From: Spinactinospora alkalitolerans | GTDB taxonomy: Bacteria > Actinomycetota > Actinomycetes > Streptosporangiales > Streptosporangiaceae | Assembly: GCF_013408795.1 (NCBI RefSeq) | Contig: NZ_JACCCC010000001.1 | Span: 4,588,001 to 4,652,000 of the forward strand | Length of the DNA stretch: 64,000 bases | Direction of reading: 5' to 3' | Shown here: one piece after another, positions 2,604-21,437 of the stretch | Position numbering within the stretch: position 1 is the first letter of the stretch | Layout of the letters: each line of letters opens with the position of its first letter | The notes under the pieces: generated by a model | The model's input: the letters and a program-made list of their open reading frames with translations, nothing else | What the model was told of the DNA's origin: nothing | Databases searched by the model: none | Position numbers and translations under genes: made by a program

Positions 2604-2663
2604 GGGACCCGTCCGTCTGTGCGGCCTTGTGTTCTCCCGCCGATCTTGACCTTAGGCATGAGA

Positions 2664-2716
2664 AACGCCCGCCCGCTACGTTGTCCCAGGTAGGGAGCGC
2701 GGAGCGGACGGGCGTT
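2664..2716. terminator. Stem-loop 3' of the integrase gene
   Basis: Inverted arms AACGCCCGCCCGCT (2664-2677) and AGCGGACGGGCGTT (2703-2716), 14 bases with one mismatch, around a 25-base loop. It lies 22 bases past the integrase stop and between it and the converging carnitine operon, so it probably terminates one or both. Confidence 0.55.
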
Positions 2717-2737
2717 GCCGTATGTGTCAACGGGAGG

Positions 2738-3859
2738 TCAACGGAGGGGATCGGACGGGTCCGGAACGGTCGCCAACGGCGCAGGGCCGAGCGCGAACGC
2801 GTCATCCATGGCTGAGCGCAGCGAGTCATCAGAGGTCGGGTAGAGGTGACCGTAGACGTCCATGGTCACGGCGATGCTGCTGTGTCCCATCCACCGCTGA
2901 ATCTTCTTCGGCGACTCGTTACGGTCGATCAGCACCGAGGCGAACGTGTGCCGCAGCCGGTGGAATTTCCGGGCGGTGGCATCGATGCCCACCACCTCAC
3001 ACGCCGCTTTCCAGTACGGCGTAACCGTGGAGTCTGCGAGGAGACGCCCACGCGGAGAGGTGAAGACCGGTTCCACCGTGACCGCGTGGGAGCCCTTGAC
3101 ACCCACGGTCAGCCGCTTAGGAGGGTGCGCCAGCCGGTAGGCCCCCAGTTCGACCACGAGCGCGTCAGACAGCGGAACGACGCGCCGTGACGCCTTGGAC
3201 TTGACCGGCCGGAACTGTCCGTCCCGCACCTGGCGATCCACCGTCACGGTGCGCGCGTGCAGGTCGATCCGGTCCCAGGTCAGGCCCCGCAGTTCCCCGA
3301 TACGCAAGCCCGTTTGCGCCGCCATCAGCACCAGCAACCGGTATTGCGGCCGGATGGCCCCAGCCAGCGCCCACACCTGCGCCACCGTGAACGGTTCGAC
3401 CTCGGTATCGGGCAGTTCGGGCAGTTCAATCCCCACACACGGACTCACCCGCCGCAGACCGGCCACCACCGCCGCCTTGAACATCGAGGCGCACACGGTG
3501 TAGGTCAGATGCACCGAGCGAGGCGAACGCGTTTTGGCCCAGGCGTTGACCGCGCGTTGGACGTCCATGGCCGTGACCGCGCGCACCGCCATCCCACCCA
3601 GTTCGGGCAGGATGTAGAGCCGCAGCAGCGTTTCATAGGCAACGTGGGTCGCCTCACGCTTGATTGCGCCAGCGGTTTCCAGCCAGCCCGCCGCCCAGGC
3701 GCTCACGCTCTGCTGCCCCGCCTTGAAGTCTTCCAGCAGGCCCGCGTGTTTCTGCGAGCGCACCAGATCCCGGAACTTGCGCGCCTTGGTCAGGGTGGAC
3801 CAGGTTTCCGACGTCTGCGTGCCGTTGCCGTCCCGGTAGGGCACCTTGTAGGCAAACAC
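2738..3859 (-). CDS. Tyrosine recombinase/integrase of an integrated element; possible 5' frameshift
   Basis: 373 aa from a GTG. An N-terminal arm-binding part (AYKVPYRDGNG), a SAM-like core-binding domain (~60-150) and a C-terminal catalytic domain are visible. Active-site residues include the Arg in TGLRIGELRGL, HRLRHTFAS, the His in RWMGHSS, and the Tyr in VYGHLYP. It should integrate and excise the 2.6-10.9 kb element. The GTG at 3859 has no ribosome site. A better start, ATG at 3954 behind AAAGGAG, reads MVETSSAWAAGTMRNGIRKV in a frame one base away. It would join this ORF if one base were added near 3863. The gene may therefore be frameshifted, or the base call wrong. Confidence 0.88.
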   Translation of the reverse strand: MFAYKVPYRDGNGTQTSETWSTLTKARKFRDLVRSQKHAGLLEDFKAGQQSVSAWAAGWLETAGAIKREATHVAYETLLRLYILPELGGMAVRAVTAMDVQRAVNAWAKTRSPRSVHLTYTVCASMFKAAVVAGLRRVSPCVGIELPELPDTEVEPFTVAQVWALAGAIRPQYRLLVLMAAQTGLRIGELRGLTWDRIDLHARTVTVDRQVRDGQFRPVKSKASRRVVPLSDALVVELGAYRLAHPPKRLTVGVKGSHAVTVEPVFTSPRGRLLADSTVTPYWKAACEVVGIDATARKFHRLRHTFASVLIDRNESPKKIQRWMGHSSIAVTMDVYGHLYPTSDDSLRSAMDDAFALGPAPLATVPDPSDPLR

Positions 3860-4036
3860 CTCACGCCCGCCGCTTTGGACTCCCGCGCCAGCAGGACCTT
3901 ACGGATTCCATTTCGCATCGTTCCTGCCGCCCACGCGCTCGAGGTTTCCACCATGACCTAGACTCTCCTTTGTCGATTTCGCCTTACGTAACCAATTTTA
4001 TTAATTCCGAGTTCGAAATAGTTATAGGAAAGTCGT

Positions 4037-4249
4037 TTATTTTGGCCACATCTGGCCCCGAATCCATGCCTTTATTTCCGCAGGAGCGAACAGGAGCTGC
4101 TGACCCGCGCGCGCGGCATGAAAGTAACGCTTGTGATTATCATACACCCACGACACCGGTTTGCGCAGGTAGGACGCCATGTCGTCCACCGTCCACAGTT
4201 CGTCGAGGTCGCCAAGGAAATCCGGAATCTCGCCTTTTCTCTGTTTCAC
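4037..4249 (-). CDS. Excisionase-like MerR/HTH_17 DNA-binding protein
   Basis: About 70 aa. The core DELWTVDDMASYLRKPVSWV is a winged-helix HTH_17/excisionase motif, followed by a recognition-wing segment ending FAPAEIKAWIRG. Position between int and repSA is the standard place for xis in pSAM2-like elements. The reading frame is open further upstream, but family resemblance begins after the GTG at 4249, which I take as the start. That codon lies inside a perfect ParB-site palindrome. A ribosome site for it is weak, so the exact start is uncertain. Expected role: directing the integrase towards excision. Confidence 0.75.
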   Translation of the reverse strand: MKQRKGEIPDFLGDLDELWTVDDMASYLRKPVSWVYDNHKRYFHAARAGQQLLFAPAEIKAWIRGQMWPK

Positions 4250-4256
4250 GTGAAAC
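4243..4256. promoter_or_regulatory. parS-like ParB-binding palindrome
   Basis: GTTTCACGTGAAAC is a perfect 14-base palindrome identical to the core of the bacterial parS consensus (TGTTTCACGTGAAACA); with flanks, 15 of 16 consensus positions match. It spans the presumed xis start codon (GTG 4247-4249). No parA or parB gene is in the window, so any ParB would be the chromosomal protein. Confidence 0.6.
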
Positions 4257-4502
4257 CGTCCCGCTGTTTTCTGGTGAACGCGCAGCGAAGTGCAAATTAG
4301 GGCCGACTCGCGGTGGCCGGCGCCCACTGACCGGCCCCCGACCACCCACCCCTTTTCACCGCTTCGCGAGTGACATCCGACGCGCAAAGCGCGCAATTCT
4401 TCTGTTCCATCCCGGCCGCAGGCACGGAATGGGAAGGTGAGATGTGGGTTTTAGTGGTCGCGCTTCGCGCGGCTGCTTTTCCTAGTGCTGCCGCGCTAGG
4501 AC

Positions 4503-6122
4503 CTAGGTCGATTCGCACCAGTAGGTGATCTCTTTCTCCCGCCGCAACAGGTCACGGTATTCAGCGCGGGCGATCTCGTATTCCCGCGCCATCGTTTCGG
4601 CCAACTGGGCATCGGCCGCGCCCACATAGCCCCGGCCCGCATAGCGCCAGTCCGCAACGATCACCGTGGAGCCGTCACCGTCGCCGCTGGCCCACACATC
4701 GCTCTCGCCGGAGGCGGTGCGCTGACGGGCTCGCCAGGAGCGCCGGGCTTGGCGCAGCACCCCCAACGTGACCGAGTAGGCGCGTGACTTGGTCGCGAAG
4801 TGGCCCCGGAACCCCAGCGTGTGCGCCCAGTGCCGCAGCTTCAACGCGGCCAGGCCCCGCCGCGCACCCAGGTCCCACGCGGTCTCGACCATCCGCGCCA
4901 AATGCGGCCCGACCTTGCGCCGCAGATGGTCCCGATGCAGCCGCCGAAACCGCCGCGCCAGCGCCGCCGACGCCCCCGGCCCCGCCGCATCCGAAGCGGT
5001 CTTGGTCGCATACTTCGCCAGATACGCCCCGATCCTGCGTGAATCCGCCACCGGCCCGCCCGCGCTCACGTCGGTGATGTCGCGTTGGGCGCCCCAATGC
5101 GCCGCCCGCAGCACCCCATCGGGCGAGGGCAGCGCGAACGAGACCGCATCGACCGCCTGTTCCACCGCTTCGGCCAGCAGGCCCGCCGAAGCCCACGCCG
5201 GAGGAGCCACCACCGCCGACCGGTCACCGGCATCCACGCCGTCCAGGCGCAGCACCACATGCAGATGCACCAAGCCCCGCTTCTGGAACTCGGCGACCTT
5301 CACATAGGAGACCTTGAGCAGGTCCCGCGCCCCGGCCACCGTCATCCGGCACCCCAGCACCGCCGAGGCCAGCGGGGCGAGCGCCCGATCAACCGCGATC
5401 CGGGTCCGCCGCCACAGCTCCCCGGCATGGGCATTCCACAGCACCGCGCCCGCATAGTCCCAGCAGTCCGCACAGATCGGAGTGCCGACGACGGGGTGAG
5501 CGTCCTCATGGACCAGGCCGCAGCCCGCCGGCCGCCCGTGTGGGCAGGTCTTCTTCCTACCGGAGCGCGGACGGCAGGCCGCTCCGCCCCGCGCGCTATG
5601 CACCGGCCCAAAACTCGGAGCGGTCAGCGTCACAAACAGCCGAGGATGCGACTCCACCGAGGCAGGCACCGCCGATTCCACCGCACTTTGGCGCACCCCC
5701 GCCCCCTGGGTCGAGGAGGCAGGCGGCATCCGCCCCGACAGACCCGAAGCCACCACATGCCACATGTCCCGCCGATACGTCTCCGCACAACTCGGGCACA
5801 CCGACGCGCGCCGGTCCCCGCACGCGATCAACAGTGTCCCGTCAGGTTCGCCCCGCGTCGAAAACTCCGCCCGCACCTCACCCGACGAGCCATCCACCGC
5901 CGCCGCGCCACCAGCGACACGCACCGGATGAGAACAGAACCGCGCCCGCTCCACCTGCCGTTGCCACCGGCGGTAATCCCCACGCCCCACCCGCGCCCAC
6001 AGTTCCCGCTGAACCAGCGACTCCACGCCCACACCACCCCACACAGCCCGTCGAACACCCGTCCTACGAACAAGCCTGAGACAAAACAGCCCATCCGCAC
6101 GGCCGATATCGGCAGAACTCAC
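4503..6122 (-). CDS. repSA: RepSA-type rolling-circle replication initiator
   Basis: Up to 539 aa. Cys-rich segments (SVCPSCAETYRRD; CPHG...C...ICADCWDYAG) suggest zinc binding. LFVTLTAPSFGPVH, the HUH-like metal motif GLVHLHVVLRLDG and the YLAKYATKT motif with the putative catalytic tyrosine region are all present, as in RepSA of pSAM2. It would nick the element's origin and start rolling-circle replication after excision. The first ~30 residues look unlike the family and an internal start (for example near VWGGVGVES) is possible. Strand composition is strongly G-rich on the coding strand, common for this replicon type. Confidence 0.88.
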   Translation of the reverse strand: MSSADIGRADGLFCLRLVRRTGVRRAVWGGVGVESLVQRELWARVGRGDYRRWQRQVERARFCSHPVRVAGGAAAVDGSSGEVRAEFSTRGEPDGTLLIACGDRRASVCPSCAETYRRDMWHVVASGLSGRMPPASSTQGAGVRQSAVESAVPASVESHPRLFVTLTAPSFGPVHSARGGAACRPRSGRKKTCPHGRPAGCGLVHEDAHPVVGTPICADCWDYAGAVLWNAHAGELWRRTRIAVDRALAPLASAVLGCRMTVAGARDLLKVSYVKVAEFQKRGLVHLHVVLRLDGVDAGDRSAVVAPPAWASAGLLAEAVEQAVDAVSFALPSPDGVLRAAHWGAQRDITDVSAGGPVADSRRIGAYLAKYATKTASDAAGPGASAALARRFRRLHRDHLRRKVGPHLARMVETAWDLGARRGLAALKLRHWAHTLGFRGHFATKSRAYSVTLGVLRQARRSWRARQRTASGESDVWASGDGDGSTVIVADWRYAGRGYVGAADAQLAETMAREYEIARAEYRDLLRREKEITYWCEST

Positions 6123-6137
6123 TCAAAACGGCGACGC

Positions 6138-6166
6138 TGGCACACCCTGTCTACGCATGGCACACC
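6138..6166. repeat. Paired 9-bp direct repeats upstream of repSA
   Basis: TGGCACACC occurs at 6138-6146 and 6158-6166, exactly 20 bases (two helical turns) apart, 16 bases upstream of the annotated repSA start. TGTCT and AGACA (6149-6174 region) form an inverted pair around the second copy. This could be an operator or initiator-binding site for repSA control; no protein can be assigned. Confidence 0.4.
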
Positions 6167-6182
6167 GTACAGACATGAAAGA

Positions 6183-6209
6183 ACCCCCTCCCGCAGACAG
6201 AAAGGGGGT
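6183..6209. terminator. Stem-loop 3' of the DUF397 gene
   Basis: ACCCCCT (6183-6189) and AGGGGGT (6203-6209) form a 7-bp perfect stem 15 bases past the DUF397 stop on the minus strand. Probable terminator isolating the XRE/DUF397 operon from repSA. Confidence 0.55.
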
Positions 6210-6224
6210 GACCGAAACTTCTGG

Positions 6225-6416
6225 CTACTGCAAACGGCCCGCCTTCACATCCCGCAGGAAGGAAGCCCATGCTTCAGCCGAGAACCCCAGGTGTCCAAGC
6301 TCCCGGTTCTGCGTGTCACGGACGAGGACTTCGTGGGGGGTTTCCGCTACCTCGACGCAGTTACCGCCGTGTCCATCGCTGTAGCTGGACTTGTACCAGT
6401 TGGGGGTTTCAGTCAT
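6225..6416 (-). CDS. DUF397 domain protein
   Basis: 63 aa starting MTETPNWYKSSYSDGHGGNC, with the DUF397 signature (WxKSSYS...NCVEVAE...VLVRDTQNRE...F...W..FL.DVK). Its ATG overlaps the stop of the XRE gene (ATGA 6413-6416). DUF397 proteins are small actinobacterial partners of XRE-DUF5753 regulators and affect development or antibiotic production. Here the pair lies on a mobile element and may regulate it or act as a stabilising module. Biochemical activity is unknown. Confidence 0.88.
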   Translation of the reverse strand: MTETPNWYKSSYSDGHGGNCVEVAETPHEVLVRDTQNRELGHLGFSAEAWASFLRDVKAGRLQ

Positions 6417-7225
6417 TGAAGCTCTCCTTGCACCTTGCAGACCATCTCCACGGAAGCGGATGGGGACAACGCTTCCGCCTGCAATGACCCGAAGATCGTG
6501 TTGCATTCCCGCACCTGGTCAGTCGCGTCGATCAGCTCGCCGCCCTTCAGGCGCTCCGCGTAGGCCACAGAAGGGCGATCATCGAAGGACATCAACCGGA
6601 ACGGACTACACAAGCCGGGGTGATTCAGTGTGCTGAGCGGTACCACCTGAAGCCGGACCACCCCGTCCTCTGCTAGCTTCCTCAGGTGTTCTAGCTGGTC
6701 ATGCATGATCTCCTGGCTACCCACGATGCGACGGATGGTGATCTCATCCAGCACGAACCAGAGTAGTGGCCTTCCTGTCCGCGTGATGACCTCACGGCGG
6801 TTCATCCGAGACTCAACCGAACGTTCGACTTGCTCCACATCATCCCATGGGCGACTAGAGCGGATCACAGCCCGTGCATACTCCTCCGCCTGAAGGAGGC
6901 CGGGCACAAGGATGGATTGGTACTCCCGGATCTCTGCGGCTTGCCTCTCCAGAACTACGACGTCGCGGAACCAGTCCGGAACGTCCTGCTGATTCGACAG
7001 GTTGACCCACAACCGAGTGAGTGATCCGCCTGTGTTGAGCGCCGCGTCCAGCGCTTCCGCATGATGCCGTTTTGCGGTCCGTGTCCCCCGCTCAATTGCA
7101 CTGAGCAGGGCGGGAGAGACCCTGAGGGTTTTGGACAGCTGGTCCTGTGAGACACCGGCGTTTGTGCGCATCCGCTTGGCTTCCGCGCCAAACCTGATCC
7201 ATATCGCGTGTGGTTTCTCAACCAT
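6413..7225 (-). CDS. XRE-family regulator with DUF5753 sensor domain
   Basis: 270 aa from the ATG at 7225 (an in-frame GTG lies 6 codons upstream). An N-terminal XRE helix-turn-helix (MRTNAGVSQDQLSKTLRVSP, ~18-50) is followed by a DUF5753 domain (~95-265) with the typical IREYQSILVPGLLQAEEYAR and LWFVLDEITIRR segments. It is translationally coupled to DUF397. It is divergent from the small-ORF/ATPase operon across ~220 bases containing an inverted ACACCGGA/TCCGGTGT pair, a plausible operator region. Likely a local repressor or activator. Confidence 0.9.
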   Translation of the reverse strand: MVEKPHAIWIRFGAEAKRMRTNAGVSQDQLSKTLRVSPALLSAIERGTRTAKRHHAEALDAALNTGGSLTRLWVNLSNQQDVPDWFRDVVVLERQAAEIREYQSILVPGLLQAEEYARAVIRSSRPWDDVEQVERSVESRMNRREVITRTGRPLLWFVLDEITIRRIVGSQEIMHDQLEHLRKLAEDGVVRLQVVPLSTLNHPGLCSPFRLMSFDDRPSVAYAERLKGGELIDATDQVRECNTIFGSLQAEALSPSASVEMVCKVQGELQ

Positions 7226-7447
7226 GCACACATTCCTACACACCTCTTCTACATAATGCTACCTCTTCCAACAAAAAACACCGGATCGGTAGTGCCTATA
7301 GATGTGTCTTTAGCGTAGTGACAATGTGAGGTCCGGTGTCGCGCTGACTTCACCGCACATATCGGTGCACATGAAAGCGGCCCTGACCAGTGCAGACACA
7401 CCGGTCAGGGCCTTAGCCCCCAACCTGTTAGGACCAGGTGAGGACTC

Positions 7448-7552
7448 ATGAAACAGGCTATCGCCCGTCTTCGAGCCACCACGTCCCGGCCGCGACGCTC
7501 CCACCGCGTCCGCCCCTACGTTCTGCGGAGCGTGAAGGCGGTGCAGGTGTGA
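7448..7552 (+). CDS. Small leader-like ORF, 34 aa
   Basis: ATG at 7448 preceded by AGGTGAGG; 34 codons ending VKAVQV at TGA 7550-7552. The stop overlaps the GTG of the ATPase-like gene (GTGA, 7549-7552). The peptide is Arg/Ser-rich and basic, begins MKQAIARLRATTSRPRRSHR, and has no recognised family. It may be a translational-coupling leader or a true small protein. Support is the good ribosome site and exact overlap; short length keeps confidence low. Confidence 0.4.
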   Translation: MKQAIARLRATTSRPRRSHRVRPYVLRSVKAVQV

Positions 7553-8004
7553 CCGTCTACCTCACGGCATTTCCCGGCACGGTGGAGAGTGTGGCCGCTG
7601 CCCGCCGGTTCATGGCCGCAGCACTGCGCATCACCCCCGGGGTGAGCGTTCCCGAGACGGTGATCGGGGATGCCGAGCTGATCATCTCGGAGTTGGCGAC
7701 CAACGCGGTCCAGCACACCCGCAGCGGTGATCCCGGTCAGACCTACAAAGTCCGCATCGAGGTCAACGCCCGAGGCGTGGCAGCCGATGTGCGCACCAAA
7801 CCCCCGCGCCTGCTGCTGAACCATCCCCACATCAAGGAACCGGACTGCTGCACCGAGAGCGGGCGAGGACTGCACCTGGTCGCCTGCTTCGCCACCGAAT
7901 GGGGACCGCTTCCGTTCGAAGACGGCGTGTTCTTCACCCTCCCATGGCAGCCCGCCCAGGCCATTGCCCCGCACCTGGCCGAGCCGGTCACCGGGGGAGC
8001 CTGA
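7549..8004 (+). CDS. RsbW-like ATP-binding (HATPase_c_2) protein, degenerate
   Basis: 151 aa from GTG 7549. The N-box helix AELIISELATNAVQHT and the G2 loop ESGRGLHLV match anti-sigma/serine-kinase ATP-binding proteins common in streptomycetes. The G1 box, normally V-D-x-G-x-G, is here replaced by VRTKPPRLLL, so nucleotide binding may be altered. It is coupled both to the upstream 34-aa ORF (GTGA) and to the downstream 87-aa ORF (TGATG). The target sigma factor or partner is not identifiable from sequence. Confidence 0.75.
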   Translation: MTVYLTAFPGTVESVAAARRFMAAALRITPGVSVPETVIGDAELIISELATNAVQHTRSGDPGQTYKVRIEVNARGVAADVRTKPPRLLLNHPHIKEPDCCTESGRGLHLVACFATEWGPLPFEDGVFFTLPWQPAQAIAPHLAEPVTGGA

Positions 8005-8267
8005 TGTACAACCTCACCCCCGCCTTGGAGCTGCGCCGGGCACGGGCGGAGTTCACCCACTACGAGGTGTGTGAGTTCCACGACCGCTCCGGCGTCGCCG
8101 AGTACACCGCCGTCCTCAAACCCGGCCGCCACTACACCGGCCTGGCCGAACTCATCTGCGCGGGCACCATCACCGAACTCAGCGCCCTGCTGCGCGCCCA
8201 GCCACGGCCCCAACTGCCCCGCAGGACCAGAACCACGACACCACCGGACTCCCCGGACGCGGCGTGA
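8004..8267 (+). CDS. Hypothetical protein coupled to the ATPase-like gene
   Basis: 87 aa, ATG at 8004 within TGATG at the end of the ATP-binding gene. It begins MYNLTPALELRRARAEFTHY and contains two short conserved-looking segments (EYTAVLKPGRHYTGLAELIC; TELSALLRAQPRP), then a disordered Pro/Thr tail. No family recognised. The overlap makes co-translation with the ATPase likely. Confidence 0.6.
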   Translation: MYNLTPALELRRARAEFTHYEVCEFHDRSGVAEYTAVLKPGRHYTGLAELICAGTITELSALLRAQPRPQLPRRTRTTTPPDSPDAA

Positions 8268-8303
8268 CTCTGAGCGTGTGAGAACTTTCCCTACAGGATC
8301 AAG

Positions 8304-8334
8304 ACGTCCGCCCGCGCTTCGCGCGGGCGGACGT
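8304..8334. terminator. Perfect 14-bp stem-loop terminator
   Basis: ACGTCCGCCCGCGC (8304-8317), loop TTC, GCGCGGGCGGACGT (8321-8334), followed by TT. It lies 36 bases past the 87-aa ORF and between convergent operons. A second GC-rich hairpin (CTGCGCGCG 8390-8398 / CGCGCGCAG 8416-8424) follows, probably serving the opposite strand. The rest of 8268-8536 shows nothing else. Confidence 0.75.
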
Positions 8335-8536
8335 TGCCGTTGCCCGGGGCGTCGGCCGAAGGTCGGCACGCGCTTACGGCCCTTGCGCGCTGCGCGCGCG
8401 ACTCCGTCGCGTGCTCGCGCGCAGGCCGACACGCGGCCTCCCCGGCCTCACCACCGCCCACGCCCCACCGCCACGCGTGGCGGACGTGGACTCGCCCGTA
8501 CGAAGCCCCACACACAGCCCCAGCTCTGCCCGTGGA

Positions 8537-9685
8537 TCAGGTACCGATGGGAGCGCCGGGCGTGTCCAGCCATACCGTCTGGCCATCAGAGGTCACGGTC
8601 AGGCCGAAGCGCGTGTGCTCTGGTTCGCCTGCGTCGAGCCACCACCGGTAGGCATCTTCCAACTCTTCGAACAGGCAGCGAGGGCCATGCTGGCGCACCG
8701 TGTAGGCATCCCGGCCGGGTGCCACCCGCCACGACGCCCACGACCCGACGTACGGGTCCATGAGATACACCGTGTATGCGGCGCTGCCGGGGTTGTCGTC
8801 GTCGAAGACGACCACGGACTTCATCGCGGGCACGCGGAGCCCGATCGCGAACGACGCATCGAAGTTCGACAGTGCGTAGTAGGGGTGGAGCCCGGTGGTG
8901 GATTCGGTGTAGTCGTGTTCCGGGCGCACCCGGTCCTCTACCGCCCCATGGGGGGTGCGCTGGTCACGCAGCCACATGAACCCCACGTTCCCGCTGAAAC
9001 GGCCGGCGGCGGTTCCGTCGGCGCGGACCCGGAGGTGTAGTAGCGCGCCGTTGTGGAAGGCCGTCCCCCACGGGGTCACCACCCTGCCGCCGGGCGCGGT
9101 CTGCTCCACCCACGCATACGGGACACGCTGAACCGAAGCGGTGGACAGCACCCGGTCATAGGGGGCACCGGGAGGGTGGCCCTTCGTGCCGTCACCGGTG
9201 ACCACGTTCACCGGCCAACCGGTGGCCTTCAAGGCGGCGCGCGCCTGTTCGGCGATGCCGGGATCCACTTCAACGGTGGTGACGTTCTCCGTCCCGGCCC
9301 GGAAGGCCAGGAGCGCCGCGTTGTATCCGGTTCCCGTCCCGATCTCCAGGACGCGCCCGCCGGACTCCGGGTCCAGGGCTGCAAGCATCATCGCGACCGT
9401 CGTCGGCATGGAGATCGACGAGGAGAAGTAGCCCCGGCCACTACCGTCCCCGTCATCGAGCTGGGTGATCAGCGGCCGGTCGGCATAGCACGCCTCCAAC
9501 CATCGCTCCGGGGACTCGGACCTGGCAAGCACAGCCGGGGCCCCGGCTTCGTCCAGCCACACCGTCTCAGGGACAAAGCAGTGCCGAGGCACCGTTGAGA
9601 AGGCGTCGCGCCAGTCCGGGCCGAGCTCACCGGATTCGGCCAGCTCCCCGACCAGACGAGACCGGAGGCGTTGAGCGGCCCTCAC
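8537..9685 (-). CDS. PIMT-like methyltransferase of the RiPP-associated type
   Basis: 382 aa. The N-terminal VPRHCFVPETVWLDEAG and TQLDDGDGSGRGYFSSSISM, then the SAM-binding motif GGRVLEIGTGTGYNAALLAF, are those of protein-isoaspartyl methyltransferase homologues found with ATP-grasp peptide maturases. A ~170-residue C-terminal extension, absent from housekeeping Pcm, is present. These enzymes methylate Asp in a precursor peptide, leading to aspartimide or isoaspartate. No ATP-grasp ligase is nearby. The GTG start overlaps the stop of a 40-codon ORF (GTGA 9682-9685), making that peptide the obvious candidate substrate. A general protein-repair role cannot be excluded. Confidence 0.82.
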   Translation of the reverse strand: MRAAQRLRSRLVGELAESGELGPDWRDAFSTVPRHCFVPETVWLDEAGAPAVLARSESPERWLEACYADRPLITQLDDGDGSGRGYFSSSISMPTTVAMMLAALDPESGGRVLEIGTGTGYNAALLAFRAGTENVTTVEVDPGIAEQARAALKATGWPVNVVTGDGTKGHPPGAPYDRVLSTASVQRVPYAWVEQTAPGGRVVTPWGTAFHNGALLHLRVRADGTAAGRFSGNVGFMWLRDQRTPHGAVEDRVRPEHDYTESTTGLHPYYALSNFDASFAIGLRVPAMKSVVVFDDDNPGSAAYTVYLMDPYVGSWASWRVAPGRDAYTVRQHGPRCLFEELEDAYRWWLDAGEPEHTRFGLTVTSDGQTVWLDTPGAPIGT

Positions 9686-9804
9686 TTGTTGTCATCATCC
9701 CGTTCGTGTTTACCGCCACCGCTCCCGCCGCTGTCGGGCGTCGGCGGGGGAACCGGCTTGGGCCACTGGCCATCGCCTTCCTTCTTCTCTTCACGCTTGC
9801 CCAC
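9682..9804 (-). CDS. Small ORF, candidate precursor peptide for the PIMT-like enzyme
   Basis: 40 aa, GTG at 9804 behind a perfect AGGAGGT (9811-9817, spacing 6), stop overlapping the methyltransferase start by 4 bases. The peptide has a basic/acidic N-terminus (GKREEKKEGDG), a Pro-rich middle (PKPVPPPTPDSGG), a Gly/Ser stretch and a charged tail (KHERDDDNK). Asp-Gly and Asp-Ser-Gly contexts are those most prone to aspartimide formation. It has no signal peptide, fold or recognised family. The strong ribosome site and coupling argue that it is expressed; a precursor role is inference. Confidence 0.6.
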   Translation of the reverse strand: MGKREEKKEGDGQWPKPVPPPTPDSGGSGGGKHERDDDNK

Positions 9805-9853
9805 TGCTAGACCTCCTGGTGACCGGGGAAGACCTACAAAATCGACGGTAACC

Positions 9854-9867
9854 AGGCGTACACGCCT
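9854..9867. promoter_or_regulatory. Palindrome in a divergent promoter region
   Basis: AGGCGT-AC-ACGCCT, a 6-bp perfect inverted repeat in the 152-base gap between the peptide/methyltransferase operon (minus) and the 112-aa ORF (plus). Could be an operator controlling both; binder unknown. Confidence 0.3.
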
Positions 9868-9956
9868 TGTCATCGAAACGGCCCACTCCGGCCACCTGTG
9901 ACAGTCCCTAAGCTGATCCGGCATCGTGGGGAAGGCCACCACCAAGGAGTGAAGCC

Positions 9957-10295
9957 ATGGCCGACAACGTTCGCCGCATCGACTCAGCCCCCAGAGTCCA
10001 GGCCGCCAAGGAACGCACCGACGCCGAGCACGCCGCCCGGACCGCCCGGGTGGTCGAAGAGCTAACCGGGCCACGTCAGTACGGCAAGTTTCCCGCCCCG
10101 GATGAGGACACCCGCAAGGCATGGCACCGCGCCGCACGCGCAGCAGCCAAGCAGCTCGGTAAGAAGGTAATCAGCCGCAGGACCTCTGATCAGGCAGTGA
10201 TCATCACGGTTGCCGAGGAAGAGCCCAACCCGTTGCGAGAGCAGCGCGACGCCGCCCGGCTGCGCAACGCCATGGACCGCGCCTTTGGCCAGTGA
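9957..10295 (+). CDS. Hypothetical protein, 112 aa
   Basis: ATG preceded by AAGGAGTGAAGCC. Soluble, helical and charged: MADNVRRIDSAPRVQAAKER at the start, a Trp-containing basic helix (KAWHRAARAAAKQLGKK) in the middle, then a short strand region (DQAVIITVAEEE) and a C-terminal helix (REQRDAARLRNAMDRAF). No family recognised. It is the last gene of the mobile element and is divergent from the peptide/methyltransferase pair. Confidence 0.7.
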   Translation: MADNVRRIDSAPRVQAAKERTDAEHAARTARVVEELTGPRQYGKFPAPDEDTRKAWHRAARAAAKQLGKKVISRRTSDQAVIITVAEEEPNPLREQRDAARLRNAMDRAFGQ

Positions 10296-10851
10296 AGTTG
10301 ACCGTAGGCGGGTCAGGGTCGGGTGTCCGGATCTGTCCACGCGGGACCATCGGCGCGGGTCCCTCAGCCGGGCGGCCAGGCGGGGAAAGACGCGGCGGAG
10401 CCAGGGGCCCACCTTCGCCGCGAGCTTAGCGCCGCCCGGCTCCCGCGCCGCTGCCCCCGCCCCTGTGGCCAGATCCCGCCACCCTCAGCAATCCCGGGCG
10501 ATGATGGGACGACGCGGCATCGAGCCACGCCGCCCCATGCTGCCGCCCGCGCCCACCCGCGTCAGCACGCCGACCGGCCCCGTCAACACGCCCCGTTGAC
10601 ACGACCCCCGCAGGACCCGCGCCACCGGCCCACCCAGGCCAACACGTCAACCAGACATCAACGCACCACCCCGAAACCCCCCGGAACGGGCACCACCGCA
10701 CTCCAACCGCGCCACCCCAAAAAACCGCCCGCCACCAGGCCAGACGACACCACACCGGAACAGTCCCAAACAGGCCGGAACACCGGTTAGAGAACTTGGC
10801 CTTATCGGGCCTAAAAGCGTTGCAATAACCCCGATAGGATCAAGATCGGCG
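10296..10851. other. Gene-free right end of the mobile element, AC-rich and G-poor
   Basis: No convincing gene. From about 10590 to 10790 the plus strand is dominated by A and C, with very few G, unlike its surroundings. Such strand asymmetry would suit a rolling-circle origin, a cis-acting transfer locus or an untranslated RNA, but no known motif is recognised. The stretch ends with TCAAGATCGGCG (10840-10851), the inverse of CGCCGATCTTGA at 2638-2649 near the other end of the element. Confidence 0.4.
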
Positions 10852-10965
10852 AAAAGCGGCAGGGGCGCGGCGGGAGAACATCCGCGCCGCCCCGGACCCC
10901 TGCCGCCGTCGCCGCCGTTTTAAGGCCACCCGCCACCCGGCAGACCACAAGGCCGCACAGCGGAC
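10852..10965. terminator. Nested hairpin plus conserved box (repeat D)
   Basis: GCGGCAGGGG (10856-10865) pairs with CCCCTGCCGC (10897-10906), enclosing CGCGG/CCGCG. The whole is flanked by AAAA (10852-10855) and TTTT (10918-10921), a two-way terminator layout. It is followed by a box, CGCCACCCGGC...GGCCGCACAGCGG (10931-10963), that recurs after another strong terminator at 48.2 kb. No gene lies between here and 11109. Confidence 0.5.
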
Positions 10966-11108
10966 CCGGCCCGCGCGTTCACCGGCGGTGCGGGCCCCTG
11001 CGGCAGAAAACCTCGGTAATACGCGCATTTCGATTATCCGGGCCGCGGCGGGAGAATAGGATCCGTAACCGTACCGGCCGGATCCCCCTACCCTGCAAGA
11101 GGACCGCG

Positions 11109-11972
11109 ATGTCTGACCCCGGATTCCCGGACTTCATGAAGAGTTCAGTCCAGAACCGGACCCCTCCGCCCGAGATCGACACGACGAAGCCGAGCATTGC
11201 GCGCGTTTATTCGTATTACCTCGGCGGAAAAGATCATTTCCAGGTCGATCGGGACATGGCGGACTACGCCTCGAAAGTCGTTCCGGGACTGACCGACATC
11301 GCCCTGGGCAACCGCGAATTCGTGCAGCGCTCGGTGCGCTACATGGCCCGCGATGCCGGCATCCGCCAGTTCCTCGACATCGGGTCGGGCCTGCCGACGG
11401 ACGGCAACGTCCACGAGATCGCCCACGAGAGCACCCCGGACGCCCACGTCGTCTACGTCGACAACGACCCCATCGTGCTGGCGCACGGCCGCGCGCTCCT
11501 GGAGGACAAGCGCGGCAGCAACGTCATCACCGCCGACCTCACCCGCCCCGAGGAGATCATCGGCCATCCGGTCACCCGGGAGCTGATCGACTTCGGCGAA
11601 CCGGTCGGGCTGGTCCTGGGCGGGATCCTGCACCACCTGCACGACTGGCAGGAGCCCCGGCGGGTGGCGGCGGAGCTGTGCGGGGCGCTCGCCCCCGGCA
11701 GTCACGTGGCCGTCTCCCATTTCCATCGGCCGGACGAGGAGGAGTTCCCCGACGACGCCGACCGGGCCCGCCTCGTCGAGGAGGCGTTCCTGGAGAAGCT
11801 GGGACACGGGCGCTGGCGCACCCGCGAGGAGATCCTCGCCTGCTTCGGCGGCCTCGAACTCGTCGAGCCGGGCCTGGTCCCCTGCCAGGAGTGGCGGGCC
11901 GGGCCCGACACCCACCGGATGGCCGACTACGTGCATCGGCTCATCGTCGGCGGCGTGGGGCGCAAGGCCTGA
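11109..11972 (+). CDS. DUF574-family SAM-dependent methyltransferase
   Basis: 287 aa. The N-terminal TTKPSIARVYSYYLGGKDHF is the hallmark of the actinobacterial DUF574/Methyltransf_19 family. The SAM site FLDIGSGLPTDGNVHEIA and the acidic VVYVDNDPIVLAHGRALL strand follow. These proteins are highly duplicated in actinomycetes and their substrates are unknown. The ATG is preceded by AGAGGA. It appears monocistronic and faces the siderophore-binding gene. Confidence 0.92.
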   Translation: MSDPGFPDFMKSSVQNRTPPPEIDTTKPSIARVYSYYLGGKDHFQVDRDMADYASKVVPGLTDIALGNREFVQRSVRYMARDAGIRQFLDIGSGLPTDGNVHEIAHESTPDAHVVYVDNDPIVLAHGRALLEDKRGSNVITADLTRPEEIIGHPVTRELIDFGEPVGLVLGGILHHLHDWQEPRRVAAELCGALAPGSHVAVSHFHRPDEEEFPDDADRARLVEEAFLEKLGHGRWRTREEILACFGGLELVEPGLVPCQEWRAGPDTHRMADYVHRLIVGGVGRKA

Positions 11973-17161: not shown

Positions 17162-17956
17162 TCAGAATCTGACCTCCGAGAGGCACCATCCGCCGTCGTC
17201 CGCCGAGAAGACGAACACGCCCTCCCGCGTCTCCGGCTCACCGGGAACCGTCGCCTCGAAGGCCAGCCGGGCGCCGTCGCCGGATTCGTCCGGTTCTTCG
17301 GCGGCCTCGACGGCGAGCCCCTCCGGGATGTCGACGTCTCCGCGTCCGACGCTGCCGCAGGCGATGCCGGCGAGCATGTCCGCGTCGGCCGTGTTGTAGG
17401 CCTCGACGGCGACGTCCGCGGCTTCCCTGGCCGTGTCGGAACGGAGCGGCTCCGGCGGGGTCAGCCGGCGGATGACGAACACGGCGAGGACGACGACCAC
17501 GGCGATCACGAGCGCGACCGCGGCCAGGAAGGCGGCGGTCCGCAAAGCGCATGTCCGGCGCATGTCGGCGCGGACCCGCGCGTTCCTCGCCGCGGCTCTC
17601 CTGCGCTCCTCGGCGCCGACTTTGCGCGTCAGCTCCTGAAAGGCCCGCTCCGCCTCGTCGAGCGCCGTGGCGACCGCCTCGGTGTCGGTACGCGCCTCAC
17701 CATCGGCGGAGCCGTCGATCTCCAGCCGGTCCGCGAGTCCCAAGGGCCTGAGTTTGAGCTCGGCTCGACGGCACAGCTCACGGCGCCGCTTCTCGGCGCG
17801 GCCGGCGGTGTCTCGCAGTTCGTCGGCCTGCCGGTGAGCCTCGTCGAGCCGCTGCCGATGCGCCGATCGCCGGTCGGTGAGAGTCCGCTCGAGCTCGGCC
17901 TCCGCACCACTGATCCGGGCCGCGGCCGCCAGGTAGGCATCCCATGCCTCGCTCAT
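17162..17956 (-). CDS. Coiled-coil membrane protein of the FtsK cassette
   Basis: 264 aa. Residues ~10-130 form a long charged coiled coil. A single hydrophobic helix (~139-163, FLAAVALVIAVVVVLAVFVI) follows, then a ~100-residue C-terminal domain predicted outside the membrane, with an AYNTADADMLAGIACGSV motif typical of Mce/DUF4878-like lipocalin-type modules (tentative). Its ATG overlaps the FtsK stop (ATGA 17953-17956). It could be the membrane anchor for the soluble ATPase, a role filled by built-in membrane helices in canonical EccC. Confidence 0.75.
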   Translation of the reverse strand: MSEAWDAYLAAAARISGAEAELERTLTDRRSAHRQRLDEAHRQADELRDTAGRAEKRRRELCRRAELKLRPLGLADRLEIDGSADGEARTDTEAVATALDEAERAFQELTRKVGAEERRRAAARNARVRADMRRTCALRTAAFLAAVALVIAVVVVLAVFVIRRLTPPEPLRSDTAREAADVAVEAYNTADADMLAGIACGSVGRGDVDIPEGLAVEAAEEPDESGDGARLAFEATVPGEPETREGVFVFSADDGGWCLSEVRF

Positions 17957-20754
17957 GCGTCCCACGGCTCCGCTGTCAGCGCGCGGACGTCGTCCTCGGT
18001 GATCGGGCCGAACGGGACGATCGTCGTCGGCTCGCCCCCGGTGCGGTCGTGCAGCAGGCCGCGCGGCCCCCGCGGGTTCCACGTGACCAGTGGCCCGAAC
18101 AGGTCCTGGACGTCCCGGCCGCTGATCCGCAGGCCCAGGATTCCGTCGATGGTGTCCTGGGCCTCCAAGCCGACGTGCTCGTTCATCACGCGCACGCTCG
18201 ACCACCACGCCAGCAGGTGGGCGCCGACCGGCGGGCCGTGCTTGAGCAGCGCGTGCAGACCGTCGGCCGGGGTCGCGGCCCCACCGCCCGACAGGTCGAA
18301 CTCCCGCGACAGACGCAGCCGGTCCAGGCCGAGGCCGATGACGTACAGGCTCGACCCTGGAGTCCCGGCTTGGCGCTCCTCCAGCATTCCCGGCAGTTTC
18401 CGCAGGTAGGGATCGACCTTCGTGCGCCCCAGGCGGAGCACGCCCGCGCCGAGGCGGGTCAGCGTGCGCTCCAGGGCGTCGACGCCGAGCGTGTCGGAGG
18501 TTTCCGCGGGCAGCAGGTCGAGGACGACGAACTCGCAGTCTCGCGCGGGGTGCTGCAGTGCCAGACTCACAGCGGCGGCCTGCACGGCCCCGACCGCCTG
18601 GTTCCCGCCGCCGTTCGCGGCCCCCGAGTAGCGCGAGTCCCCCGCGCCGACGACGGCGAGGTGCCTGCCGTGGTCATCGGTGAGGGCGAAGCCCACCGCG
18701 GGAACCCCGACGTCGATCGCCGTGCCGAGCAGCGCGACGCGCGCGGCCCGGCCCGCCCGTTGCCGGCCGCGTAGTTCGTGGAGGCGGCCGACCGCGCCCG
18801 ATATCCGCTGGGCGGCCGACCCGTCGAAGAGGACCGGGACGGCAACGGAGTCGCCGACCCGGGCACAGACTCGCTCGCGTAGGCTCCGCAGCCTGGCCTC
18901 GTCCGCCCAGGCCACCGTCGCCCGCCGGTTGGCCTCGGCGGAGCCGGATTCCAGGTTCACCACCGCTTCACCGCGGTAGCGCAGCCTGGACGCCTCCGTA
19001 TTCTCCTGGTCGAGCACGGCCCGGGACTCCGATGGGGAGTTCTTCAGGGCCAGCCTGACGGGGAACTGCGCGAAGATCCCGTCCTGCTTCGCGAGCATCG
19101 AGATGATACCGGACAGGGTCTGGGACGCCAGCACGAGGTGCATGCCGTAGGCGCGCCCCTTCCTGGCCAGCCGTTCGAGGTCGGCGAGAGCACGCTCGGT
19201 GATTTCGTCGTCGGCTTCGAACAGCACCTGGAACTCGTCGATGACCGTCACGATCCGCGGCAGCACGTGCGACGGGTCGGCCCGCCGGTACTTGAGGAGG
19301 TCGTCGCCGTAGGAGCGGATGAGAGCGGCCCGGCGGTCGAACTCCTCGACCAGATGGGCGAGCACGGCCGCACCGTACTCGCGGTCGCTGTTCAACCCGA
19401 CGGTCCTGGCGTGCGGGAGCCATGACCGGCTGCCCGGGCGCGGGCCGAGCGGCTCGAGCGTGATGCCCTCCTTGAAGTCCAGCAGGTGCATCTCCAGCTC
19501 GGCCGGGGCGTAGCGCATGGCAAGGCTGTGCACCAGCACCATCAGCAGGTTGGACTTCCCCTGCCCGACGGCCCCGGAGACCAGGATGTTGTGCCGCTGC
19601 TCCCGGTCGTCGCCGAGGACGATCTCAATCGGTTCGTGGCCTTCCCGGCCGATGGTCGCCACCAGCCGCTCGGCCGACGAGTCGGACATCAGCGGCAGCC
19701 GGGGCTGCAGCTCGAGGAAGTCGATGTGCGGTGCCTCCGCGGCCTTGGCGCGCTCGGCGATGCGTGTCACGGCGGGCGCGAGATCGGCGGCGGGCGGCGG
19801 CTGGATCGTCCATCCCGGCAGCCATCCGGGCTCGAACCGTCCAGACGTGGCCGCGACCACGTTGCCGAGCTCGACCAGCGTGTCGGACTGGTCGTCGACC
19901 GTGCCCCCGCACCGCATCCGGGGGTCGTACTGCAGGATGGTGCTGATCCCGCAGGCCGGGCCTTGGCGCATGATGCTCACCAGGCTGCGGACGGCGTCTT
20001 CGGAGAAGCCCTGCGGGTAGTCGCACACGACGAGCAGCTGGTAACCGCCGACGGGCTGGCCCGTCTGCCGCCGGAGTTCCCCCAGTGTCGTACGGCGCCC
20101 TTGAAACGTGTCCACCGTCTGCCGGATGTCGTCGACCAGTGCCGCGAGCGACTGCTCGATGTCGGTCCCCGTCCCCGCCGGGCGCGGCAGCAGATCCTCG
20201 TTCACCTTGGCCAGCGGCGCGAAGGCCGAGGTCACCGCGCGCAGCCCGGGATCGATACCGCGGATCGCGACCTGGCCGGGTCCGCTGCGCTCCAGGGCTT
20301 GGCGGACGACGGATCGGACGAGGCCGCCGACGTCGTCGTCCCATGCGCCCGCGATCACCAGGTTGCCGTGGTCGAGCAGCGGCACCGGCGCGGGCACGCG
20401 CACGCTCTGGTCCGCTCGGCCGCCGGCGCCCGCATGAGTGGCGATCCCGAGCCCGACGTATTCGGCGGCGTCCAGCAGACCGGCCGGCGCGGACGGTTCC
20501 GGCAGCAGTTCCTCCGCGGCGTTCTGAGCCGCGGTCCGCGCCCGCGCGAACTCGGCCGCCATCCGCTCCCGGGTCGCGGCCTCGTCGCGCGCGTGCCGCC
20601 GTTCGGAATCGGCCACGCGTGACTCCCGCTGCCGCTGCGCCCCTCGGGTCAGCGAGTCGGCGGCGTCACGCAGGCCGGCCGCCTTCTCGGCGAACTCCGC
20701 GACCGCACGGAGCAGCGCCGCGGGAGTCCTGGTTGGGTCCTCGCCCGACGGCAT
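17953..20754 (-). CDS. FtsK/SpoIIIE-type ATPase with three modules and coiled-coil N-terminus
   Basis: 933 aa from ATG 20754 (AGGGGGAGC upstream; the frame is open further but non-coding in character). Residues 1-90 are a coiled coil. A degenerate ATPase-like module spans ~100-330 and lacks Walker A. The central module carries Walker A GAVGQGKS (394-401), Walker B VTVIDEF (~502-508) and LASQTLSG. A C-terminal degenerate module covers ~690-930. Three RecA-like modules recall EccC of type VII secretion, but no membrane helix is present and the active module is the middle one. DNA translocase and protein-export roles are both possible. Confidence 0.85.
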   Translation of the reverse strand: MPSGEDPTRTPAALLRAVAEFAEKAAGLRDAADSLTRGAQRQRESRVADSERRHARDEAATRERMAAEFARARTAAQNAAEELLPEPSAPAGLLDAAEYVGLGIATHAGAGGRADQSVRVPAPVPLLDHGNLVIAGAWDDDVGGLVRSVVRQALERSGPGQVAIRGIDPGLRAVTSAFAPLAKVNEDLLPRPAGTGTDIEQSLAALVDDIRQTVDTFQGRRTTLGELRRQTGQPVGGYQLLVVCDYPQGFSEDAVRSLVSIMRQGPACGISTILQYDPRMRCGGTVDDQSDTLVELGNVVAATSGRFEPGWLPGWTIQPPPAADLAPAVTRIAERAKAAEAPHIDFLELQPRLPLMSDSSAERLVATIGREGHEPIEIVLGDDREQRHNILVSGAVGQGKSNLLMVLVHSLAMRYAPAELEMHLLDFKEGITLEPLGPRPGSRSWLPHARTVGLNSDREYGAAVLAHLVEEFDRRAALIRSYGDDLLKYRRADPSHVLPRIVTVIDEFQVLFEADDEITERALADLERLARKGRAYGMHLVLASQTLSGIISMLAKQDGIFAQFPVRLALKNSPSESRAVLDQENTEASRLRYRGEAVVNLESGSAEANRRATVAWADEARLRSLRERVCARVGDSVAVPVLFDGSAAQRISGAVGRLHELRGRQRAGRAARVALLGTAIDVGVPAVGFALTDDHGRHLAVVGAGDSRYSGAANGGGNQAVGAVQAAAVSLALQHPARDCEFVVLDLLPAETSDTLGVDALERTLTRLGAGVLRLGRTKVDPYLRKLPGMLEERQAGTPGSSLYVIGLGLDRLRLSREFDLSGGGAATPADGLHALLKHGPPVGAHLLAWWSSVRVMNEHVGLEAQDTIDGILGLRISGRDVQDLFGPLVTWNPRGPRGLLHDRTGGEPTTIVPFGPITEDDVRALTAEPWDA

Positions 20755-21437
20755 GCTCCCCCTACACGGGAAAAACGGAAAAGGCCGCAGCCCTGGACGG
20801 CGGTGGAGACGGTCTCCGAATACCCGGCCCTTTGATCGGCCACGCCCGATCGCAACGCCATGGCCACTTCTTTTCCAAATCCGGATTTTCAGCATCTTAG
20901 CCGGGGCCATCGGCGCTCACAAGCCGGATTTACCCGGGAATTCCTGCGCACACCGGTGACGCGCCGATCCGTCCCCACCCTCCCCGTGCTTCCCACCGCG
21001 CTCCGGTTTTTGCGAGCCGTTGATCCGATGGGTATTCGGCTGCACCGTGCGTCCATTGCGGGACGAGGGCGGAGCGCACCGGACCGGGTCGGACCGCGGT
21101 GCCGCGGATACGGCGGATCTTCGGCATCGAGCTCCACCTGGAATGGAAGCCGCCCAACGGTCCGTTCTTCATCGGAAAGTCCGGACGTGGCCGGGTTGCC
21201 TCTCACCGAACTCTGACCGCTGCGTTCGCGGGTCGGGGTGGATTCTCAAGGCTCGGACCCGCCATGCCGCCGGCGCTACGCGCACTGCGACAGCCAACCC
21301 CCTGTGCGGACCCGATCGTCGAACATCAGTCAGCCCGCCTCACATGTTCTCAGCGGAGCAGCGGCTCAGAACACCGGCCGTAACGGCGAACCGCAGCCGG
21401 TCTTGACACCGCTCCCCGTCGCCGCCGACACCAACGC
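20755..21437. other. Gene-free region upstream of the FtsK cassette
   Basis: About 680 bases without a convincing gene. It should hold the promoter of the minus-strand FtsK operon; an A/T-richer patch around 20860-20900 is the most promoter-like part. A repeat copy occupies 21214-21333. A short frame at 21099-21213 (MPRIRRIFGIELHLEWKPPN and on) reads like coding sequence and runs into the repeat, but lacks a ribosome site. Confidence 0.4.
21214..21333 (+). repeat. Three-copy intergenic repeat, copy A
   Basis: Begins GACCGCTGCGTTCGCGGG and ends CGATCGTCGAACATCAGTCAG-like. It aligns end to end with 27902-28023 (same orientation) and the reverse complement of 56521-56639, at roughly 75-80 percent identity by eye. 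The most constant parts are GTTCGCGGG, GCCGCCGGCG and CCCCCTGTGCG. A small hairpin (GCGCAC...GTGCG) recurs in all copies. Confidence 0.75.

Follow-up and report, generated by a model that had tools for sequence, protein, structure and literature searches.

The window analysed here comprises 64,000 nt of Spinactinospora alkalitolerans (assembly GCF_013408795.1, contig NZ_JACCCC010000001.1, positions 4588001-4652000, forward strand). On its minus strand lies a short ORF of 40 codons plus stop (9682-9804), which starts with GTG and encodes the peptide VGKREEKKEGDGQWPKPVPPPTPDSGGSGGGKHERDDDNK. A perfect ribosome-binding site, AGGAGGT (9811-9817, minus strand), is located 6 nt 5' of the start codon. 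The TGA of this ORF shares 4 bases (GTGA, 9682-9685, minus strand) with the GTG start of a gene for a PIMT-like methyltransferase (PAMT) of 382 aa (8537-9685, minus strand), and the overlap suggests stop-start translational coupling of the two genes. ORF, ribosome site, overlap and PIMT homologue are exactly as described in an earlier sequence-only reading of this DNA.

Scans against Pfam and NCBIfam returned no family for the peptide. Homologues were sought within the same taxonomic family, where 232 of 343 genomes, the window's own included, contain a relative of the methyltransferase at E ≤ 1e-40; an order-level search returned an almost identical genome set. A homologous peptide is encoded 5' of the methyltransferase in 40 relatives, whose enzymes are 49-75% identical to the window enzyme, and among the best relatives it is present upstream of most enzymes with more than 50% identity. 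SD-like sites typically precede these ORFs, and the upstream regions of L009-L013, L018-L022, L024, L038, L040 and others show the same 4-nt overlap. Retention of the short ORF in most close relatives and of the overlap in many bears out what the sequence-only reading would lead one to expect. Codon differences to the three nearest homologues amount to 21, 20 and 22 at the third position and to 5-11 each at positions 1 and 2. Given its conservation in 40 relatives and the excess of codon differences at third positions, we regard the peptide from these comparisons as encoded by a genuine gene and not a chance ORF. Precursor and enzyme are inherited together: mapped on a tree of 128 enzymes, precursor types are strongly clustered and require 30 label changes, compared to 68.1 after shuffling, and none of the 200 shuffles reached so low a number. 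The clade of the window enzyme (n = 16) contains 13 intact precursors, two degraded ones and one enzyme without a matching peptide.

In L014, L015, L016, L029, L031, L048, L052, L054 and L061 the methyltransferase is kept and the precursor is truncated or missing; some such enzymes may therefore act on other substrates. In L014, L015, L031, L048, L052 and L061, where the methyltransferase frame stays open, only a C-terminal tail such as GGGKHERDDK is left of the precursor, or the precursor seems frameshifted, amounting to repeated precursor loss. At least one extra methyltransferase copy is found within a few kb of the pair in L099, L103, L105, L107, L109, L110, L112 and L113. These copies are 36-49% identical to the window enzyme and have their own precursor in L109 and L110, with none recognised for the others. 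Genes that recur next to the pair were sought in 20 relatives. They comprise extra copies of the methyltransferase, antisense ORFs opposite these copies, and HTH regulators of common types; no other gene recurs beside the pair in more than three of the 20.

The methyltransferase matches the Pfam family PCMT (PF01135) with 108.4 bits (cut-off 20.3). Its best NCBIfam model is TIGR04188, 'ATP-grasp peptide maturase system methyltransferase', which scores 332.6 bits and thereby stays under the cut-off of 380, so the 'ATP-grasp' label indicates kinship only. The earlier description as a PIMT homologue of the kind found with ATP-grasp maturases is correct in this restricted sense. An AlphaFold model of the enzyme (mean pLDDT 92.3) has as its top PDB fold match the PIMT of T. 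maritima, 1dl5, with an alignment of ~380 columns spanning an extra domain, whereas the next PIMT matches cover the core only (~240 columns). Lee et al. (PMC10787088) state that, to their knowledge, no structure of the RiPP-associated clade other than 1DL5 has been solved, and describe its extra domain as ordered strand-helix-four strands-helix. The model of the window enzyme displays the same order from residue 260 on. This C-terminal domain (approximately residues 260-382; 8540-8908, minus strand) comprises ~120 residues, the class being delimited by more than 100 aa together with a WXXXGXP motif. The motif is present as WLDAGEP (W349-P355; 8621-8641, minus strand), with W349, G353 and P355 invariant in an alignment of 35 sequences. 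WXXXGXP is described for RiPP-modifying PIMTs in PMC13001092, which also reports that an acidic loop (DEDGD) in the C-terminal region of NmaM is required for full modification; the stretch FDDDN in the C-terminal domain of the window enzyme is suggestive of a counterpart. If the enzyme were a PIMT serving in protein repair, with the short ORF as a leader peptide that merely regulates its translation, the PCMT core and the gene overlap with its strong ribosome site would be expected. However, the amino acids of the peptide, not its position alone, are conserved and vary by subgroup with the enzyme, which moreover possesses the additional domain and the motif of RiPP-modifying PIMTs. We consider this explanation very unlikely.

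Family scans of the neighbours (Pfam and NCBIfam) found the integrase, RepSA, an HTH/DUF5753 regulator, a HATPase_c_2-type ATPase, Methyltransf_19 and iron-transport-type genes. In agreement with the sequence-only reading, ATP-grasp, LanB/C and protease genes were absent among the scanned neighbours, and no exporter was recognised near the pair. The single TIGR04187 match in the genome, an ATP-grasp maturase at 698583-699512 of the contig (389.4 bits, over cut-off), lies 3.9 Mb away. It is followed after 46 bp by its own methyltransferase paralogue (start 699559), which is 37% identical to the window enzyme. ATP-grasp and PIMT there form a separate pair of graspetide type (698583-700710; L161, L005). 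Since the ATP-grasp of this genome has its own paralogue elsewhere, the window pair represents a separate system. The reading that the window enzyme is a stray tailoring methyltransferase of a graspetide (ATP-grasp) pathway, next to an incidental small ORF, can draw on its best NCBIfam model being one of ATP-grasp systems, but the score under cut-off, the remote maturase with an adjacent methyltransferase of its own and the conservation of the small ORF in 40 relatives argue against it. It was rejected as extremely improbable, given the conserved peptide and the distance of the sole ATP-grasp maturase. An FxLD lanthipeptide system was rejected as well, as TIGR04364 gave 154 bits (cut-off 320) and no Lan gene occurs among the scanned neighbours.

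For prediction of the modified residue, the window peptide and its 40 relatives were aligned (n = 41). Asp11 (codon 9772-9774, minus strand) is D in all 41 sequences and is the sole column with one residue throughout. Gly12 follows in 39 of them, with Glu instead in L034 and L042, and subgroups with and without the C-terminal block alike keep Asp11-Gly12. Position 24 (Asp24-Ser25 in the window peptide; Asp24 codon 9733-9735, minus strand) is D in 20, N in 8 and another residue or a gap in 13 precursors. The equivalent of Asp24 is absent or part of Asp-Pro in members with a PPPPPPEP tail (L023, L025, L027, L028) and in most PPGGGKHEK members. Asp-Pro offers no backbone NH for ring closure, which makes an aspartimide impossible. 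Two sister groups, GTFVDP (L064, L066, L077, L079) and DGQ-SPHGGG (L076, L081, L084, L086, L090), keep Asp-Gly or Asp-Ser. Because Asp11-Gly12 is conserved and Asp24 is not, Asp11 is probably the modified residue, judging from the alignment. Asp11-Gly and Asp24-Ser-Gly had both been put forward earlier; the former is favoured, and conservation of the Asp24 context was not found.

Alternatively, Asp24 (or 24/25) within the block TP[DN][DSG]GGSGGGKHERD could be modified, the N-terminal part then being a leader as in NmaA-like precursors. Probable Nonomuraea-type precursors (group g40) have their candidate Asp, as D[G/H/E/S], 8 residues before K/R-H (TPDGYKESGGKH, STGDHNETGSGKH, NPDSHKAATGRH), and the same spacing of 8 separates Asp24 from the KH motif of the window peptide. 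Asp-His, the pair reported for NmaA, is included among them. Nearly all members of the GGSGGG group possess an Asp at 24 or 25 (DS, DD, DG, ND; NS or NG were not seen). In NmaA, according to the review PMC13001092, the modified Asp precedes His and 20 N-terminal residues are removable. Against this stand the 20 of 41 precursors as the full extent of D at position 24 and the PPPPPPEP and most PPGGGKHEK members, which lack Asp24 or have Asp-Pro, yet keep D11-G. A modified Asp24 therefore appears rather unlikely. With Asp11 as the preferred site, GGGKHERDDDNK may be the recognition tail of the window peptide.

Imiditides, equivalent to type I pamtides, are a class defined in 2023. The 40-aa peptide consists of 20% Gly, 15% Pro and 12.5% Asp, compared to 17.3, 16.8 and 10.2% in published type I precursors of ~45 aa. 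Like these it is rich in Gly, Pro and Asp and adjacent to its enzyme; it contains no Cys and no CXXCXGXG. It has a conserved Asp near Gly/Pro and conserved charged termini, which in most homologues read MGKH[DE][DE] at the start and GGG[KR]HE[RK] at the end, and the scanned neighbours include no primary enzyme from a different RiPP class. A type II pamtide (cysimiditide), with a CXXCXGXG-D-CXXCXGXG precursor, is ruled out for the cysteine-free peptide. With 8 K/R and 9 D/E the peptide is near neutral and does not share the strong positive charge which PMC13001092 gives as a property of known imiditides, not as their definition. This charge counts against an imiditide, as do the late Asp of the probable Nonomuraea-type precursors, the relatives with a truncated or missing precursor and the lack of a recognised exporter or protease gene near the pair. 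Nevertheless, the two genes very probably constitute an imiditide (type I pamtide) locus. The two-gene RiPP locus proposed from the sequence alone is sustained by the peptide conserved upstream of the relatives' enzymes and by precursor types that track the enzyme tree. The pair adds a member to an existing class; >1,500 pamtide clusters overall are reported by Lee et al. (PMC10787088), and a count of 1414 type I clusters by the same authors is cited in PMC13001092. As a separate observation, the precursor of L087 is of type II (CKRCNGSG...CPGCGGTG) and shares its beginning, VGKHGKK, with type I precursors, a hint that both types could be homologous.

In the proposed mechanism, the ribosome would synthesize the precursor of 40 residues and, through coupling of its stop codon to the next start, also the methyltransferase. 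The enzyme would bind the linear precursor via its extra C-terminal domain and perform a SAM-dependent O-methylation of one aspartate side-chain carboxylate, most likely that of Asp11. The backbone NH of Gly12 would then attack the Asp11 methyl ester to form an aspartimide (-18 Da), which would slowly hydrolyse to isoaspartate or aspartate. SpaM and NmaM catalyse such a conversion of linear precursors (PMC10787088, PMC13001092).

The pair is located in a segment of 8.5 kb (2604-11108, exact ends not located) between a thioesterase-like gene on the left (2169-2603) and a Methyltransf_19 gene on the right (11109-11972). In five relatives (L177, L178, L179, L180, L182) these two genes are separated by a gap of 140-230 bp, and transport genes then follow in four of them (L177, L179, L180, L182). 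In the window, the segment between the flanking genes holds a tyrosine integrase (2738-3859; Pfam Phage_integrase, 89.5 bits), a small excisionase-like HTH ORF judged by eye from its translation (4037-4396), the pSAM2-type replication initiator RepSA (4503-6122; Pfam RepSA 476.8 bits; NCBIfam RepSA 352.8 bits, under the cut-off of 700), all on the minus strand, and the peptide/methyltransferase pair. Since the flanks are 140-230 bp apart in relatives and 8.5 kb apart here, the segment is by synteny taken to be an inserted mobile element. Tyrosine integrase and RepSA occur together within it, as in pSAM2-type AICEs. No transfer gene (FtsK/Tra) was recognised among the scanned ORFs of 2604-11108, an FtsK-like ORF (17953-20910) lying beyond the chromosomal flank; a search for att sites found no direct repeat ≥ 18 nt involving the insert ends and no tRNA there. 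Of the pSAM2-like element suggested earlier, the insertion with integrase and RepSA was confirmed by synteny, whereas a recognised transfer gene and att repeats are missing.

Inverted matches of 15, 13 and 12 nt connect the insert ends (2617-2649 and 10840-10960); for the 15-mer (2617/10946) the chance by random placement is ~0.3%. Elsewhere in the genome, at 3383734-3384296 of the contig, a second RepSA gene in two pieces (L165, L166; 82-90% identical) is likely the remnant of a related element. Neither RepSA nor the integrase was found near the pair in 20 relatives with wide flanks; hence, the element carries this copy, but members of the family do not usually reside on it.

Streptomyces phages belonging to the genus Austintatiousvirus encode full-length relatives of the enzyme (43-46% identical). 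In the four phage records inspected, a small ORF 8 nt 5' of each methyltransferase encodes MSGKHGGGSGSGSGGSQQDDSSSGRQHGGGGSETSGGNSSDGSGPSKK or a near copy (L148:2310-3649, L149:2247-3649, L150:1313-2649, L151:1244-2649). These peptides are Gly/Ser-rich, 47-48 aa long and start with MSGKHGGG; their annotation reads hypothetical protein and methyltransferase only. The phage pairs are possibly phage-borne imiditide pairs. No published description of them was found in the literature searched, whose reach mostly excluded subscription papers, and the viral_contigs search with the window methyltransferase gave no match. Relatives of the enzyme also occur in 75 plasmid records, at least one of which has a similar precursor (...NPQDDSDSGNKHGGGGSDEGGNTNDGKDPADGK).

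We tentatively suggest, as an idea that may well be wrong, that imiditide-type pairs are cargo shared by actinomycete mobile elements (RepSA element, Austintatiousvirus phages, linear plasmid), the modified peptide serving the element, e.g. in inter-element competition or as a host advantage, and that the D11-G subgroup is modified near the N-terminus with a C-terminal recognition tail, reversing the usual leader-core order. The pair is of interest for its predicted site, its near-neutral charge and its mobile carriers. The alignment of 41 precursors provides a sharp, testable site, Asp11-Gly12, plus two natural Asp-Glu variants. Insert, phage and plasmid pairs give a concrete handle on the spread of imiditide-type genes, and the carriers offer a possible setting, element versus element or element plus host, in which imiditide function may be sought.

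Among known systems, graspetide PIMTs (AmdM, SsfM) are homologous enzymes of TIGR04188; they differ in that no ATP-grasp is recognised near the window pair and in that a linear substrate is expected for it. Cysimiditides (type II pamtides, FcaA/FcaM) are likewise two-gene PAMT loci, but their precursors carry CXXCXGXG zinc motifs and the window peptide is free of cysteine. NmaA/NmaM of Nonomuraea maritima, compared by description from PMC13001092, also combine a stand-alone precursor with a PIMT homologue that contains WXXXGXP and whose C-terminal region includes an acidic stretch (DEDGD for NmaM, FDDDN here). NmaA has an Asp-His site and at least 20 dispensable N-terminal residues, whereas Asp11-Gly is favoured in the window peptide, and the strongly positive charge stated there for imiditides contrasts with its near neutrality. 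SpaA/SpaM of Streptomyces sparsogenes (PMC10787088), likened to the window pair by description, share with it the restriction to two genes, a short Gly/Pro/Asp-rich precursor with acidic/basic termini, a PIMT homologue with a C-terminal domain and a linear substrate; the modification was demonstrated for SpaA and is predicted for the window peptide.
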